From positions 3,992,010-4,056,009 of the forward strand of contig NZ_CP072467.1 in assembly GCF_018437505.1 (NCBI RefSeq): a stretch of DNA of 64,000 bases, read 5' to 3'. Made by a program: the position numbers and the translations under genes. How positions within the stretch are numbered: the first letter of the stretch is position 1; every line of letters begins with the position of its first letter. The notes below the pieces were generated by a model, which was given only the letters and a program-made list of their open reading frames with translations, was not told the origin of the DNA and made no database searches. This DNA is from Spiractinospora alimapuensis (GTDB lineage: Bacteria; Actinomycetota; Actinomycetes; Streptosporangiales; Streptosporangiaceae). Shown here piece by piece: positions 20,179 to 36,499 of the stretch.

Positions 20179-20434
20179 CACCCATGTCGCCATGGCGCGG
20201 TGAGAGGAGACGCCACGCGCGGTGGGTTTCCTTCTACGGCCGGCTCCTCAACGGCGCCGAGGCCTTGGAAAGGTCGCGCTGCGCGCGGCTCATTTTCGTG
20301 GCGACTTCGGTGCTGCGGGCAAGTGGTTGGTGGCCTGGTGCCCCGGGCTTGCTCCCCACTTGGCCCTTCACTCCGCGGGCGCGTAACCGGAGTGGCCGCT
20401 GGGGAGTGAGCCACGCGAAGCGTGCCCGATGTTT

Positions 20435-21016
20435 TTAGGTGGGTTTGAGGAGGCGGCTGGTGTAGCCGGCGTTGATGAGGGATTGGTAGGCGTGGAGGAC
20501 GGGTTGGGGGATGTCTTGTTGGATGGCGAATCCGCGTTCGGGGTACTCGATGATGCGGTTGAGGTCGCCGATGAGCATGTCGACCACGAACTGTTCGTTG
20601 TCCATGGTCTTGAGGTAGTCGTCGAAGTCCAGGGGTGCGGAGGTGCAGGTGATGTCGACTTCGGGCCACTCCTTGCGGGCGGTGGCGTAGGCGCGGCGTT
20701 CCATGTAGGGCATGGACACCAACAGGACTGACTTCACCTCGGCGCCGACCTGGGTGAGTGCCTCGCGGGAGAAGCGGATGTTCTCGCCTGTGTTGCGGGC
20801 ACGAGGCTCGACCACGATCGCCTCAGCGGGCACACCCAGAGCCTGAGCGTGCTCGGAGAAGTGCACCGCCTCCCCACGCGGGAAACGCCCCGGCTTCGTC
20901 GGATTCGGCCCTCCGGTGAACACCAGGGTCGAGAACAGTCCCGCCTGGTACAGCCGGGCACATCCGCCAACCACCGCGACCCACCCGACACAACCAACTC
21001 CCCGATGATCACTCAC
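20435..21016 (-). CDS. YdcF-like (DUF218) protein with shortened N-terminus
   Basis: A 193-residue product from GTG 21016. Most of the DUF218 fold is present: ARLYQAGLFSTLVFTGG, then RFPRGEAVHFSEHAQALGVP, EAIVVEPRARNTGENIRFSR and LLVSMPYMERRAYATARKEWP. Family members normally have about 40 more residues at the N-terminus ending in a GLGxxDxxVA loop; here that part is missing or scrambled, and a second frame (VIIGELVVSGGSRWLADV) also resembles it. Decay or an indel near 20965 is likely. DUF218 proteins act on envelope polymers or nucleotide-like metabolites in other bacteria, but this cytosolic type is uncharacterised. It sits beside the DUF397/XRE genes, a frequent neighbourhood. Confidence 0.72.
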   Translation of the reverse strand: MSDHRGVGCVGWVAVVGGCARLYQAGLFSTLVFTGGPNPTKPGRFPRGEAVHFSEHAQALGVPAEAIVVEPRARNTGENIRFSREALTQVGAEVKSVLLVSMPYMERRAYATARKEWPEVDITCTSAPLDFDDYLKTMDNEQFVVDMLIGDLNRIIEYPERGFAIQQDIPQPVLHAYQSLINAGYTSRLLKPT

Positions 21017-21117
21017 GGAAGCACCTGCACAACAGCCTGCTTCCGGATGGCCTCCACACTCTGAAGCTGATGTCGCAAGCCAACCCTGAGCACGGCGCCG
21101 CCGCAAGAACTCAGAAA

Positions 21118-21309
21118 TCAGAGCTCGCCAGTGCGCGCGGCGTGGAGGAAGGCTGACCACTCAGTGGTCGTGAAGGACAGGGGGCCCAGGTCGGGGTGTT
21201 TCGAGTCCCGGACCGCTGCCCCGGCTGGGAGTTCGGCGACCTCCACGCAGTTGTTGCCCGAGCCGCTGTAGCTGGACTTGTGCCAGGTGGGGTGGGGGGT
21301 TTGTGGCAT
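21118..21309 (-). CDS. DUF397 protein (copy 1)
   Basis: A 63-residue DUF397 protein with the hallmark WHKSSYSGSGNNCVEVAEL at the start and EWSAFLHAARTGEL at the end. GGGAGGAACCC precedes ATG 21309. DUF397 genes typically accompany XRE/DUF5753 regulators; in Streptomyces the Scr1/Scr2 pair (XRE and DUF397) affects antibiotic production, and WhiJ clusters affect development. This is one of two tandem copies here, likely a duplication because their tails are almost identical. Confidence 0.93.
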   Translation of the reverse strand: MPQTPHPTWHKSSYSGSGNNCVEVAELPAGAAVRDSKHPDLGPLSFTTTEWSAFLHAARTGEL

Positions 21310-21429
21310 GGGTTCCTCCCGGCTGGGTGGGGGTGGCCGTGGAGTTCACCGTAGCCCGGCGGGGTTCTCCGTACGGCGGGGATGACGAAGGCCCCGGCGC
21401 TTGCCAGGGGCCTCGGACGACTGGGGTGC

Positions 21430-21612
21430 TTAAAGTTCGCCGGTGCGGGTGGCGTGAAGGAAGGCGGACCACTCAGGGACGGGGATGGTGAGATGGCCAA
21501 GGTGGCGATGCTGGGTGTCGCGGATGAGTACCTGGCCAGTGTCAGTGCGGCACTCGACACAGGCGTTAGAGCTTCCACCGCTGTAGCTTGACTTGTGCCA
21601 CTGGTCATTCAT
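21430..21612 (-). CDS. DUF397 protein (copy 2), coupled to the XRE gene
   Basis: A 60-residue DUF397 protein beginning MNDQWHKSSYSGGSSNACVE and ending EWSAFLHATRTGEL. Its ATG overlaps the TGA of the XRE gene (ATGA), so the two are translationally coupled. This is the usual partner arrangement of DUF397 with an XRE/DUF5753 regulator. The central part differs from copy 1, which may give a different binding partner. Confidence 0.94.
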   Translation of the reverse strand: MNDQWHKSSYSGGSSNACVECRTDTGQVLIRDTQHRHLGHLTIPVPEWSAFLHATRTGEL

Positions 21613-22418
21613 GGCGCGAAATCCTCTCTGATCTTCTTGATCATCTTGCCAGACTCGGTGAGGGAGAGCGCCTCGGCTTGCAGTGCCCCGAAGAGCGTCT
21701 CACAGCGGTTGATTTGCTCAGCGTTTTCGACCACCTCCTCACCCAAGAGGTGTTCTACCAAGACCACAGAGGTTCTACCGGTGAATCTCAACACACGAAA
21801 ATTGCCGTTCATCCCAGGATGATGGGGTGCGTACTCCGGGATGATCTGTAGTTTCAGCGACGAGGCGTCCATCAGGGTGATGATGTGGGTCAGTTGGTCG
21901 TGTATGAGCTCACGACTCCCGACCACCCGCTTCAACGCGACCTCGTCGACCACGTACCACAGCAGCGGGTTCAGGTTGAGCTCACCTCGGCGCTTCACTC
22001 GTGCTCGCACGTCTTGATCAATCTCCATGGGGGTCGCCCAGGGCCGCGCATCCGTCATAAACGTGCGTGCGTACTCCTCGGTCTGGAGAAGCCCGGGAAT
22101 GAAGGTGGTCGTGTACTCCCTGATCTCGACGGCCTCTCGTTCCAGGAGACCGATGTCCCGCCACCAGGCGGGGACGTCCACGTTGTTGTTGATGTCGAGC
22201 CAAAGCCGGGTCAGCTTTCCATCTGTGGAGAGCGCGGTGTCCATTGCCTCCGCATGTGACCGTTTTGGCTCTCGTGTCCCATTCTCGATTGCGGAGATCA
22301 TGGAGCCGGACATGTTCACGGCAGCACCCAGCGTGACCTGCGTGATCCCTTCCTTTGTTCGGTAGTGCCGCAGTTCGTTGCTGAATTCGTGCCACTGGTT
22401 TTCCGCTTCAGAGGTCAT
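21609..22418 (-). CDS. XRE helix-turn-helix regulator with DUF5753 (WhiJ/Scr1-like)
   Basis: A 269-residue regulator. The N-terminal HTH covers residues 12-65 (LRHYRTKEGITQVTLGAAVN, then SGSMISAIENGTREPKR). The DUF5753 domain follows, with the typical REYTTTFIPGLLQTEEYART and later LNPLLWYVVDEVALKR, ending in a Ser/Leu/Lys tail. In Streptomyces such proteins repress or activate development and secondary-metabolism genes together with a DUF397 partner. It is first in a minus-strand operon with DUF397 and faces a second, plus-strand set with an anti-sigma-like ATPase. Confidence 0.94.
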   Translation of the reverse strand: MTSEAENQWHEFSNELRHYRTKEGITQVTLGAAVNMSGSMISAIENGTREPKRSHAEAMDTALSTDGKLTRLWLDINNNVDVPAWWRDIGLLEREAVEIREYTTTFIPGLLQTEEYARTFMTDARPWATPMEIDQDVRARVKRRGELNLNPLLWYVVDEVALKRVVGSRELIHDQLTHIITLMDASSLKLQIIPEYAPHHPGMNGNFRVLRFTGRTSVVLVEHLLGEEVVENAEQINRCETLFGALQAEALSLTESGKMIKKIREDFAP

Positions 22419-22596
22419 AGCACATTTCTATGCGGAAGCTCTACGAGGCTCCACTCGTTCAACGGAATTCGCCATTCCTGTGGAAAACCTAGCGGATGGT
22501 TACCGCGTGACCCCACTGTGGAGACTCCGACCAGCCAATAGACCCCCGCGACCGACAAAAGCGGTCCGGGGGCGTGGCCCAACTGGGAGGTTCCAG

Positions 22597-22791
22597 ATGG
22601 ACAGGTTTGACCCTAACGCTCGTGGTGTGGACTGGTGTCGGCGCGGTGGTGCGGCTCGGGTGCGGCCGTACCTCTTTCGTCGCCATGCGTATGTGTGGTG
22701 TCGAGGGTGCGGCACTGCGCTGGACCACCCCTCTACGGTGACCTCGGTGTTGTCGACGGGGCCGATGCCGGTTGTGGAGGTCGTGTCATGA
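22597..22791 (+). CDS. Small Cys/Arg-rich hypothetical protein
   Basis: A 64-residue product, MDRFDPNARGVDWCRRGG at the start and WCRGCGTALDH in the middle. GGGAGG (22585-22590) is 6 bases before ATG. Its TGA overlaps the ATG of the next gene (ATGA), so it leads a coupled operon. The CRGC pair plus an earlier Cys could bind metal, but no family is recognised. Small proteins of this kind often precede anti-sigma-like ATPase genes in actinomycetes. Confidence 0.72.
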   Translation: MDRFDPNARGVDWCRRGGAARVRPYLFRRHAYVWCRGCGTALDHPSTVTSVLSTGPMPVVEVVS

Positions 22792-23207
22792 CCGGCCGCA
22801 GGTTCGCGGGTGTTCCTGGAAGTGTCGCTTTGGTGCGGGCGTGGACTCGGAACGAGCTCCATCAGCGTGGTACCGATCTCGGCGCGGTGGAGGAGGCCGC
22901 GCTTGTCGTGAGCGAGTTGGCGACGAACGCGATCCGTCACTCCCGGAGCGGTCACCCCGGCGGCTCGTTCCTGGTGGAACTCGACATCCGACCCTCAATG
23001 GTGCGGATCAGTGTTGTTGATCAGGGCACGGATGGGAAGTCGGTTCCGATGTGGGGGAAGAAGACCGATCCCCTCACCGAGCACGGCCACGGGTTGAACC
23101 TTGTGGCGAGTTTGGTGGAGCGGTGGACCACCATCACCAACAACGGCCACTGCACCGTCACCACCGACCTCCCCACCCTCGTCCCCACCGCGGGAGGCCG
23201 ACGGTGA
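22788..23207 (+). CDS. RsbW-like ATP-binding protein (anti-sigma/AbaA-like)
   Basis: A 139-residue GHKL ATPase of the HATPase_c_2 type. It has VVSELATNAIRHSRSGHPGG (N-box, E and N for Mg-ATP), VDQGTDGKSVP (G1) and HGHGLNLVASLVERW (G2). Such proteins act as anti-sigma factors or related kinases; members beside XRE/DUF397 genes are grouped with the WhiJ/AbaA-type clusters. GGAGGT precedes ATG 22788. It overlaps both neighbours by 4 bases (ATGA and GTGA), so the three genes form one translational unit. Confidence 0.9.
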   Translation: MTGRRFAGVPGSVALVRAWTRNELHQRGTDLGAVEEAALVVSELATNAIRHSRSGHPGGSFLVELDIRPSMVRISVVDQGTDGKSVPMWGKKTDPLTEHGHGLNLVASLVERWTTITNNGHCTVTTDLPTLVPTAGGRR

Positions 23208-23449
23208 ACACCAACCCCGTCACCACCCTGCTCCACCTCTTAACCCCGCACGGCGCCGTGTTCTACCGCACCACCGGAAACCCCACACAAGGCCGAACCC
23301 ACGTCTCCCTCTCCATCAAACGGGACAACGGCCAAATGATCCACGCAACGTTGACCAACGACATGTGGCACGTCGCTGGCCGCACCTACCCCACCGGCGC
23401 CGAACACCACGTCGCCACCCACCTCCTCACCCACAAACACCACACCTAG
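23204..23449 (+). CDS. Small hypothetical protein after the RsbW-like gene
   Basis: An 81-residue product from GTG 23204, which overlaps the stop of the ATPase gene (GTGA) and has GGGAGG about 7 bases upstream. The sequence is His/Thr-rich (HLLTPHGAVFYRTTGNPTQG, and THLLTHKHHT at the end) and predicts beta strands. The coupling suggests it works with the ATPase; no family is recognised. Confidence 0.75.
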   Translation: MNTNPVTTLLHLLTPHGAVFYRTTGNPTQGRTHVSLSIKRDNGQMIHATLTNDMWHVAGRTYPTGAEHHVATHLLTHKHHT

Positions 23450-23642
23450 ACCACAACCCCGCCCCGCACCCCTCCCGCAGGGCGGCCCCCAAGTGGTGGG
23501 GATCCAGGCCAACCCGACCCGGATCCCCACCACCACCCCCACACGCCAACTGGAACGTCCTGACCCACGTAGGCCTGCGGGCATCATGGGGGGCGCCCCC
23601 CGCGACAACACGTCCGCACCACTACGCCAGTCACGGAGAACT

Positions 23643-24821
23643 ATGCAGCCCTCCGAGCACGTACCCGAACTGATGTCTCTCCTCGTGGAGGGGTTCGCCA
23701 ACGCACAGGTCGAGGTCGAACTGCTGCCGCCGACCACATTGCGGATCCAGGTCCCCGGGCACGACCCGGTCGAGGCGGACTACGAGTCCACCGTGGCGGA
23801 GGCGCGTGCGTTCGAGGCGGAGGACTATCCCGAGATCGCGGCCCAGGTGGTGCGCGCGCTGCTGCGGCGGTACCGGGAGAACGGGATCCGGCTGGGCACG
23901 CACTACCCGCCCCACTACGACGACCACGGGCGCCACGCCCTGGTCACGGCACTGGCCGAGCGGGACCTGCCCTCCTTCTTTGAGGACCCGCGCACGCTGA
24001 GCCTCCCCCTGTCCAGTGGCGACCGCGTCATCAGCGACGTGAGCAGCTACATCGACACCGTCGAGGGTGTGTCGGCGGAACAGGCCGAGGAGGCGGCGAA
24101 CCGCTTCGCGGACCTGCTGGCCCAGCAGCTCGCGCAGATCGTCCCGCAGCGGTCGGCACCGGACAGCCAGATCCGCGTCCGGCTCTACCCGGAGTCGGCC
24201 TTCTCCGAGGAGGTCCTGGCGGGCCTGCTCTGTCGCCCCTTCGGCCCCGGACTCTGGCAGGTCGCGGCGCTGGACAGCCCCGACACCGTCCAGCCGATGG
24301 GGCGGCAACAGCACGAGGAGACGGGCCGCCCCGACGACGAGGTCTTCGCGGCCGGGGTCGCCAACGCCCTGCGGGAGCCGGTCGAGGTGTCGCGGCACGA
24401 GATCGGCGGCGTGACCATCGTCCACGTCGGGGGCCAGCACCCCTACGTCGCGGCGCAGTTGCACAACCTCGGCGAACACATTGGTCCGGCGCCCCACGGC
24501 GCCCTGGTCGCGGTGCCGGTCCCGCAGGTGGTGATGGCGCACGTCCTGGGGGATGGGCATCCGATCGCCGCACTGGAGACCCTCCAGAACGTCGCCCAAC
24601 GGTTCGTGGACGACAGCGAGCGCCCGATCACGCCGCACCTGTACTGGTGGCGCCCCGCCGGCCCGGCCGATGACGTCTCCGCGGTGCCGGAACTGCACCT
24701 GGCGCGGATCGAGATCGAAGAGGAGGACGACCGCGTGGCCCTGTACTCAAGCTCCGACGACTTCCAGCCGATGATGGAGTCCGTGCTCGAGAGCCAGCGC
24801 GCCGCCTCCGACGAATCCTGA
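23643..24821 (+). CDS. Hypothetical 392-residue protein
   Basis: A long acidic cytosolic protein. The N-terminus (HVPELMSLLVEGFANAQVEV) is followed by a helical and then mixed region; the middle has RVRLYPESAFSEEVLAGLLC and VTIVHVGGQHPYVAAQLHNL, and the C-terminus a run of acidic residues (EIEEEDDRVALYSSSDDF). GGAG lies 5 bases before ATG 23643. I do not recognise a domain. Steady codon bias over its full length shows it is a real gene. It is ended by the perfect palindrome at 24865. Confidence 0.8.
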   Translation: MQPSEHVPELMSLLVEGFANAQVEVELLPPTTLRIQVPGHDPVEADYESTVAEARAFEAEDYPEIAAQVVRALLRRYRENGIRLGTHYPPHYDDHGRHALVTALAERDLPSFFEDPRTLSLPLSSGDRVISDVSSYIDTVEGVSAEQAEEAANRFADLLAQQLAQIVPQRSAPDSQIRVRLYPESAFSEEVLAGLLCRPFGPGLWQVAALDSPDTVQPMGRQQHEETGRPDDEVFAAGVANALREPVEVSRHEIGGVTIVHVGGQHPYVAAQLHNLGEHIGPAPHGALVAVPVPQVVMAHVLGDGHPIAALETLQNVAQRFVDDSERPITPHLYWWRPAGPADDVSAVPELHLARIEIEEEDDRVALYSSSDDFQPMMESVLESQRAASDES

Positions 24822-35587: not shown

Positions 35588-36499
35588 TCAGCGATCGGCG
35601 CGGGCGCGCAGTCGGCGCAGCATTCGGGCGTCCCGGAAACCGACGGCCCGGGCGGCTGCCTCCGCGGTCGCCCCGGTGTCGATCATGTGCTGGGCGTGTT
35701 CCAGCCGAAGCCGTTGTTGGTAGCGCAACGGGGTGCTTCCGGTGGCGGCGACGAACGCCCGCGTCAGCGTACGGTCGCTGACCCCCACGGCGGCGGCGAG
35801 CTCCACGAGTGGGAGGGGAGACGCGAAACGGCGGTCGATCACGTCCTGCGCTCGATGCACGACGTCGGTGTTGTGGGCGCGATGGCGCAACATCGCGCTC
35901 ACCTGCGGCTCGTCGCCGTTGCGTCGCGCGTAGACCACCATCTCCCGGGCGACGTGGGCGGCCACGGCCGGCCCGTGCCAGGTCGCCACCTGGTGGAGCG
36001 CGAGGTCGATGCCGCTGGCGATTCCGGCCGAGGTCAACACGGTCCCGTCCGCGACGTAGAGCACGTCGGGAACGACCTTGGCCCGCGGACAGGCGCGGGC
36101 CAGGTGACCCTGAAGGGCATGGTGGGTCGTGCAGCGGCGTCCGTCCAGCAGGCCGGCCTCCCCCAGGGCGAAGGCACCGGAACACACGCTCGCCACGGTG
36201 CCGCCCCGCGCGTGGTGGGCGGCCAACGCCTCCACCTGGCCCGGGGTGAGCACCGGCCGGAGGGGTTCGGAACCCACGCGCTGCCCCGGGACGACGACCA
36301 CGTCCCGGGGCGTGAGGGTGGGCCAGGTCGTGTCACAACGCAGCGGCAGCCCCTGGGCGGTCGTGACCTCGGCGTCGCCGGACACGTAGCGGATCTCGTA
36401 CCCCAGACCCATGTCGGCGGCGGTCGAGAAGACCTGTGCCGGACCGGCGAGGTCCAGGAGATGGATCCGCGGCGTCACTAGGAACACGATGAGGGTCAC
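35588..36499 (-). CDS. GlxA-type AraC regulator (DJ-1/PfpI domain plus HTH)
   Basis: A 303-residue protein. Residues 1-180 form a DJ-1/PfpI-like domain (LLDLAGPAQVFSTAADMG, ASVCSGAFALGEAGLLDGR). The C-terminal AraC HTH is VGVSDRTLTRAFVAATGSTP and LEHAQHMIDTG. The Cys in CSGAFALG occupies the nucleophile elbow of the GATase fold. It is downstream (28 bp) of the isochorismatase gene on the same strand, so they form an operon; the ligand may be an amide or amine related to that enzyme. GTG 36499 is the start. Confidence 0.92.
   Translation of the reverse strand: MTLIVFLVTPRIHLLDLAGPAQVFSTAADMGLGYEIRYVSGDAEVTTAQGLPLRCDTTWPTLTPRDVVVVPGQRVGSEPLRPVLTPGQVEALAAHHARGGTVASVCSGAFALGEAGLLDGRRCTTHHALQGHLARACPRAKVVPDVLYVADGTVLTSAGIASGIDLALHQVATWHGPAVAAHVAREMVVYARRNGDEPQVSAMLRHRAHNTDVVHRAQDVIDRRFASPLPLVELAAAVGVSDRTLTRAFVAATGSTPLRYQQRLRLEHAQHMIDTGATAEAAARAVGFRDARMLRRLRARADR

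Follow-up and report, generated by a model that had tools for sequence, protein, structure and literature searches.

A predicted cis-antisense RNA over the start of a microprotein-ATPase operon in a WhiJ/BldB/AbaA-type island of Spiractinospora alimapuensis

The window analyzed here is a stretch of 64,000 nucleotides from Spiractinospora alimapuensis (contig NZ_CP072467.1, positions 3,992,010 to 4,056,009), whose genome is a single contig of 5.86 Mb. Within it, an island at positions 20435 to 23449 holds a plus-strand trio, composed of a small gene named here S1, an ATPase gene and a second small gene, S2; the trio is divergent from minus-strand genes for an XRE/DUF5753 regulator, two DUF397 proteins, and a YdcF-like protein; the open reading frames and their overlaps were read directly. 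S1 (22597..22791, plus strand), identified as an open reading frame with conservation at the protein level, encodes a basic microprotein of 64 aa with the motif RVRPYL and is preceded by the Shine-Dalgarno sequence GGGAGG (22585..22590, plus strand). It shares an ATGA overlap with the gene of an RsbW/AbaA-like ATPase (22788..23207, plus strand; HATPase_c_2, E 1e-15), which in turn shares a GTGA overlap with S2 (23204..23449, plus strand), an open reading frame of 81 aa with a GTG start and a single-sequence structural model. The main subject of this report lies over the start of S1, where two short hairpins and, on the minus strand, a predicted cis-antisense RNA gene are located. This RNA feature was missed by the original prediction made for the island from its sequence alone, and it is wider in occurrence and more unusual than the trio.

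The ATPase has 27 matches in its own genome (E up to 0.001), and a small open reading frame with the motif R[VI]R[PR][YF] is found upstream of 18 of them. When aligned, the leaders of these 18 S1 genes, collected via the protein and independently of structure, all share a pair of short inverted repeats that reach up to the start codon. Hairpin 1 (22543..22572 in the window, assigned to the minus strand, where its fold, z -3.7, is terminator-like) consists in plus-strand letters of CCCCCG, one bulged C, and GACCG, paired with CGGTC and CGGGGG; its common composition is CCCCCG, the bulged C, GA, and then a variable stem. In the 18 leaders, 96.9% of its 195 cells are paired, compared with 34-62% in slid controls, and double-sided change is seen at five of the 11 pairs, a value reached in one of 500 shuffles. 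Hairpin 2 (22583..22596, minus strand, defined from the leader alignment) is formed in the window by CTGG and CCAG around a 6-nt loop and covers the S1 Shine-Dalgarno sequence; generally, the Shine-Dalgarno sequence falls in or beside its loop, which is mostly of 7 nt. When hairpin 2 is required to end at most 2 nt from the start, all 18 leaders form 3 bp or more and 15 of them form 4 bp or more; a stem of 4 bp is reached by 5.2% of the 401 control genes and by 9.3% of shuffles.

A covariance model built on hairpin 1 only gave 20 matches in the same genome at E below 1e-8, namely the 18 S1 leaders and two new sites, the next match having E 0.005. One new site, at 4.53 Mb, is a decayed S1/S2 locus whose hairpin 2 has yet another stem; the other is divergent from an XRE gene and two DUF397 genes. 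Of 117 elements, 113 form both parts of hairpin 1 perfectly, with C always as the bulged base and with 25 different upper stems, and hairpin 2 reaches at least 4 bp in 103 of these 113 (~20% in shuffles), the four other elements being left out of this count. Moreover, the same organization was observed in viral contigs from IMG/VR, retrieved by patterns that left the inner stem free (66 stretches for one pattern and at least 120 for another; 146 of the at least 186 stretches were read, and deduplication reduced 147 sites to 133). There, at least three further pairs of hairpin 1 form at 117 of 133 sites (3.5% in shuffles), and a hairpin 2 of at least 4 bp forms at 102 of 132 (~16% in shuffles), one site being too near the contig end for hairpin 2. 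As judged from the aligned sequences, the two hairpins are conserved through compensatory change. The iron-responsive element has a bulged C and a 5-bp upper stem, and an analogy to it was dropped because the loops vary here; a tRNA-derived leader was dropped as well, since a tRNA search of the window found none.

Three features of these elements point to the minus strand. First, exceptions to pairing in the hairpin 1 stem comprise 8 A.C, 1 G.T, and 3 other combinations in 271 elements (one of 272 was excluded), and inside hairpin 2 they comprise 21 A.C, 1 G.T, and 11 other in 256 elements, or 11 A.C versus 1 G.T when different exception stems are counted. The occurrence of A.C with hardly any G.T fits G.U pairs on the minus strand. 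Second, in all 20 copies of the own genome the sequence AnnnTA (TAnnnT on the minus strand) begins 12-13 nt past the A of the ATG, compared with 8% of shuffles; in the window it gives the predicted -10 box TAGGGT (22610..22615, minus strand), inside the S1 reading frame. In the wider counts, which for the -10 box, the -35 box, and the A-rich flank were confined to elements with hairpin 1 and a hairpin 2 of at least 4 bp (17 of the 20 own copies), AnnnTA recurs close to this position in 64 of the 87 family elements, 13 of the 14 class elements, and 94 of the 100 viral ones, the control windows giving 0, 0, and 1. Since AnnnTA spans codons of unrelated proteins, it does not reflect a protein motif. 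Third, A makes up 46-53% of the 9 nt preceding hairpin 1 versus 26% of the 50-nt upstream stretch, and this A-rich flank lies at the side of hairpin 1 where a minus-strand U-tract would be expected, thus pointing to the same strand.

The hairpins might alternatively function within the S1 mRNA, forming a structured ribosome-binding site comparable to the Start-Associated Sequence (SAS) of phages, to which the Arg-rich S1 or another protein perhaps binds. According to the parts of the literature consulted, SAS and ESAS are a repeated motif at the ribosome-binding sites of Cluster K and EF phages, ESAS being a 17-bp imperfect repeat with a reported SigA-like promoter (PMC3203893, PMC7302621, PMC11373665, PMC12699233), and the authors who first described it saw little evidence for a hairpin in the mRNA (PMC3203893). 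Hairpin 2 of one paralogous island, L054, is exactly GGGATAGGAGCCC, the phage SAS as given there (PMC3203893), with the same 3-bp stem and 7-nt loop, but most copies in this genome have other stems. Compared with ESAS by description only, hairpin 1 differs in that it covaries, and no sense-strand promoter at a fixed distance is conserved in the 50 nt upstream. The Shine-Dalgarno sequence within or adjacent to the loop of hairpin 2 and the good folding of the plus strand agree with a sense-strand leader; however, such a leader leaves the excess of A.C over G.T exceptions, the minus-strand -10 box, and the A-rich flank unexplained, and we consider it quite unlikely.

On the other hand, a number of observations weigh against an antisense RNA. 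Folding of the plus strand is no weaker than that of the minus strand (z -4.5 versus -3.7), the U-tract of the window copy is weak, and a consensus scan of the window stretch calls neither a promoter nor a minus-strand terminator. No -35 box is conserved, at least four of the six positions of TTGACA with spacers of 16-18 being matched in 0 of 17 own, 5 of 64 family, 0 of 13 class, and 15 of 94 viral elements. AnnnTA is absent at the expected place in 23 of the 87 family elements, and the 9 nt before hairpin 1 include five or more A in only 6 of the 17 elements of the own genome, in 56 of the 87 from the family, in 8 of the 14 from the class, and in 66 of the 100 from viruses. In the 5-bp register of hairpin 2, the end positions, which may in part be unpaired, show 48 A.C, 2 G.T, and 39 other combinations. 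Regarding the structure itself, the number of further pair types in hairpin 1 is within the shuffle range (68 of 500 as high), the shuffle statistics ignore the relatedness of the copies, and the elements retrieved by the covariance model were found using hairpin 1, so that counts for hairpin 1 in them are biased towards it, hairpin 2 not being modelled as pairs.

With both sides taken into account, we think it probable, from sequence evidence, that the S1-ATPase-S2 operon is kept silent by a cis-antisense RNA of ~68 nt (22536..22603, minus strand; ends approximate) lying over the S1 Shine-Dalgarno sequence and start codon. Its +1 is placed at ~22603 from the position of the -10 box and its 3' end past hairpin 1. 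We infer that this RNA would be transcribed on the minus strand from 22603 to ~22536, across the Shine-Dalgarno sequence and start of S1, would pair with the S1 leader via its two loops, and would thereby block ribosome binding. As the ATPase and S2 are coupled to S1 by ATGA and GTGA, silencing of S1 would spread to both of them through translational coupling. The block would be lifted only if transcription driven by the divergent XRE/DUF5753 regulator supplied enough mRNA to titrate the antisense RNA. Short structured antisense RNAs over a rep or transposase translation start are represented by the counter-transcribed RNAs (ctRNAs) of plasmids and RNA-OUT of IS10, and by likeness to these a block of S1 translation should be expected; in contrast to them, the element described here occurs on plasmids, phages, and many chromosomal islands, and its stems are diversified. 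An earlier case of an antisense RNA beside a gene of the anti-sigma type is scr4677 of S. coelicolor, a cis-antisense RNA by SCO4677 that also starts near the start codon of the opposed gene (PMC3896431). Compared by the available description only, it differs in that it starts 14 nt upstream of the start codon of SCO4676, a putative helix-turn-helix protein (PMC3896431).

Activation by a divergent regulator has been proposed for WhiJ9 and iosA in the text consulted (PMC10294661), and the inverted repeats could be DNA operators for such a regulator rather than parts of an RNA. The element does lie between divergent genes in many islands, and a census of 99 loci gave a divergent XRE/DUF5753 gene in 39 of them; WhiJ9 is described as binding repeats in a region of this kind (PMC10294661). 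The WhiJ9 sites described there are, however, direct repeats (PMC10294661), the stem sequences of our element change yet stay complementary, and the element also occurs with other regulators or with none in view. We therefore regard an operator as very improbable. The 97 census loci from other genomes were drawn from the better-scoring family matches listed and are thus a non-random sample; two loci, L232 and L250, were excluded because their flank is cut by the contig start.

The cis-antisense RNA predicted for the window belongs to an element of wide occurrence. In the family, at E up to 0.01, the covariance model matched 55 of 150 genomes, which represent 33 of 68 genera; the own genome has 20 matches, and other genomes have 18 at most. 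Only 34 of the 55 genomes reach 1e-6, so some single matches in the family may be due to chance. In the class, 45 of 296 genomes were matched at 1e-4, 21 of these 45 in one family. Sixteen plasmid records were matched, including nine of Streptomyces, three of Bifidobacterium, and one of Rhodococcus; the matches on Rhizobium, Marinibacterium, and Halomonas plasmids extend over just 40-64% of the query and could be due to chance. In addition, 61 phage records were matched (53 of Gordonia and eight of Arthrobacter), none of which covers 80% of the query, and among the matches listed only hairpin 1 and the linker are aligned. A partial and weak match to the RNA model (18.9 bits) at 36284-36314 on the plus strand of the window is probably due to chance.

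The element holds a fixed position at the starts of many unrelated genes. In 63 of the 99 census loci, the gene directly 3' of it has the strict motif [VIML]RPY, a count made without control and with the gene start picked among codons near the element in favour of this motif; an ATPase gene is next in 7 of the 99. The shortest of the RPY microproteins after the element have 22 aa. To the eye, the genes that follow the element in viral contigs resemble those of HNH endonucleases, of Cys-rich small proteins, and in some cases of RPY proteins. Among named records, the sequence abutting the element was read at one plasmid and one phage: on the Bifidobacterium plasmid pDOJH10L it abuts RepA, and in the Gordonia phage Asapag it ends at the annotated start of an HNH endonuclease. 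The annotated HNH start of the Arthrobacter phage Bauer is located ~150 nt beyond the element, and the annotation of the Streptomyces NBC_01724 plasmid lists no gene directly after it. In other genomes, element matches at L249, L253, L256, L333, L346, and L347 lie 5' of or beside genes that look by eye phage antirepressor-, HNH/zinc-finger-, phage-, or transposase-like.

No match at or above the gathering score was obtained with Rfam 15 for the window and 10 other loci, and a relaxed Rfam scan of 20300-23700 gave two sub-threshold hits, both away from the element. Among the top-ranking papers of the open-licence literature, no title or abstract opening describes it. We tentatively propose, with somewhat less than even confidence, that a single RNA family unmatched in Rfam serves as an interchangeable translational off-switch across Actinomycetes, acting on RepA in plasmids, on HNH genes in phages, and, via a new family of RPY-motif microproteins, on many chromosomal islands of the WhiJ/BldB/AbaA type, where diversification of the hairpins would prevent cross-silencing between paralogues as in plasmid incompatibility groups. 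If true, actinobacteria would share a mobile silencing device, one small RNA gene placed over RepA, phage HNH genes, and RPY microproteins alike, and the element would be a marker for unannotated small proteins.

The multi-copy small open reading frames, the predicted antisense RNA over their ribosome-binding site, and the occurrence on mobile elements would also agree with a type I toxin-antitoxin system, in which the microprotein is the toxin and the antisense RNA the antitoxin. But RepA and HNH endonucleases are also among the genes after the element, and the S1 protein of the window, read by eye, is basic and Cys-bearing and has no evident membrane helix, which makes a toxin-antitoxin system decidedly unlikely. 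A simple attenuator peptide was rejected for S1 in this genome because its C-terminal part is conserved here at the protein level; attenuation may hold for the versions of 22-30 aa elsewhere. Mini S1 peptides of ~26-29 aa, with RVRPYV or RIRPYV, are located directly 5' of an ATPase gene at L170 (genome G023) and L079 (genome G030), without a match to the RNA model.

Both small proteins had been called unrecognized in the original prediction, and indeed neither S1 nor S2 has a match in Pfam or NCBIfam at E up to 1, which rules them out as members of known families there. The ratio of nonsynonymous to synonymous polymorphism (pN/pS), pooled for S1, is 0.17, 0.23, and 0.26 in three clean groups of paralogues and 0.43 in the group with the chimeric window copy. 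As this ratio is low among the paralogue groups, S1 is, to judge from its sequences, more than a chance open reading frame and evolves as a protein. For S2, close groups have a pN/pS of 0.24 and 0.35, and divergent groups one of 0.67-0.71; for the ATPase it is 0.09-0.34. The S1 profile has matches at E up to 0.01 in 8 other genomes among the 80 searched, below 0.001 in G030 only, and the S1 protein pattern has no match in IMG/VR. Sequence searches matched S2 in its own genome only among 80 family genomes, and the long type of the third gene in its own genome only among 100 relatives; neither the S1 C-terminus nor the long type has a distant homologue in GTDB r220, from which records very near the window genome may be left out. 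A single-sequence fold model of S2, with a predicted local distance difference test (pLDDT) score of 81.8, consists of a helix, five strands, and a helix, and has no counterpart in PDB at E below 0.001; the S1 model was poor (pLDDT 46.8) and was discarded. A recurrent small gene (LL..RYG.RW.IRRTE.LWIAT...HAPT.IE), resembling S2 in outline, was noticed near the RNA-element loci L233, L238, L239, L247, and L251.

The original prediction had suggested that S1, the ATPase, and S2 may form a new signalling trio, in which case the RNA would be incidental, and such a trio is compatible with the antisense RNA. A third gene, of either a short (seven) or a long (six) type, is found downstream of 13 of the 27 ATPase matches, and all three genes are present at 12 of the 27 places, mostly with 4-nt overlaps. 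Since the small genes thus recur beside the ATPases, their association holds within this genome; outside it, S2 was found in no other genome searched, and the C-terminal domain of S1 has no GTDB r220 match. The low pN/pS of S1 and of the close S2 groups also agrees with a protein trio, whereas S1 and S2 vary or are absent beside other ATPases, the ratio is higher in the more divergent S2 groups, the searches matched S2 in this genome only, and few RNA-element loci have the ATPase next to the element. The signalling interpretation is partly supported, and a protein trio with an incidental RNA appears fairly unlikely to us; a complex of the three proteins is neither supported nor excluded by the sequence data.

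The remaining part of the island is of a known kind. The gene of the XRE helix-turn-helix and DUF5753 regulator (21609..22418, minus strand; Pfam DUF5753 E 2e-48 plus the helix-turn-helix), WhiJ-like and divergent from the trio, shares an ATGA overlap with the first BldB-like DUF397 gene (21430..21612, minus strand; E 4e-17), and the second DUF397 copy (21118..21309, minus strand; E 2e-23) follows. All genes and overlaps of the original prediction are present in the open reading frames and Pfam matches, and its assignment to a WhiJ/Scr-type island was confirmed by family searches. An XRE/DUF5753 gene, adjacent DUF397 genes in two copies, and a nearby multi-copy HATPase_c gene are found together here; the WhiJ/BldB/AbaA islands of Streptomyces likewise combine XRE (WhiJ), DUF397 (BldB), and a nearby HATPase_c (AbaA), with many paralogues per genome, and the excerpts consulted mention neither a small gene with the motif RxRx[YF], nor a third gene, nor an antisense RNA (PMC10294661; PMC4255298). 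Thus the island itself matches the known BldB-WhiJ-AbaA triplets. These loci are enigmatic developmental regulators, and the silencing of abaA-type genes is only partly understood; an antisense RNA over the operon start would add a testable post-transcriptional layer to them.

The window XRE/DUF5753 protein is matched across the gap in 14 of the 18 islands with the small gene. One of the 18, L050 (4.45-4.46 Mb), is decayed, with a frameshift in S1 and a TGA inside the ATPase gene, and both hairpins and the minus-strand -10 box are kept in it. Comparison of paralogous islands shows that the window trio is a recombinant of two of them. Its identity to island L044 (3.67 Mb) is 92.6% between -139 and +762, counted from the ATPase start, and its 5' part (-248 to -118) is 90.2% identical to L051 and 88.6% to L052, with 82.2% identity to L053 over -222 to -118; the switch point is at the RVRPY codons. 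Islands L045 and L046 match the window in the ATPase and S2 only (89-90%); their S1 genes differ, and their XRE proteins are 31% and 26% identical to that of the window. The ATPase-S2 blocks of the window (22649-23550), L044, L045, and L046 are thus 89-93% identical in DNA despite different island regulators, a sign of recombination between islands.

Finally, the YdcF-like gene named in the original prediction is present (20435..21160, minus strand; Pfam DUF218) and probably truncated. The DUF218 profile is matched only from position 20, and the window copy is ~115 bp shorter than its paralogue in L044, the two copies being 97% and 94% identical in DNA on the two sides of the gap; on these grounds, this copy is probably neither intact nor functional.

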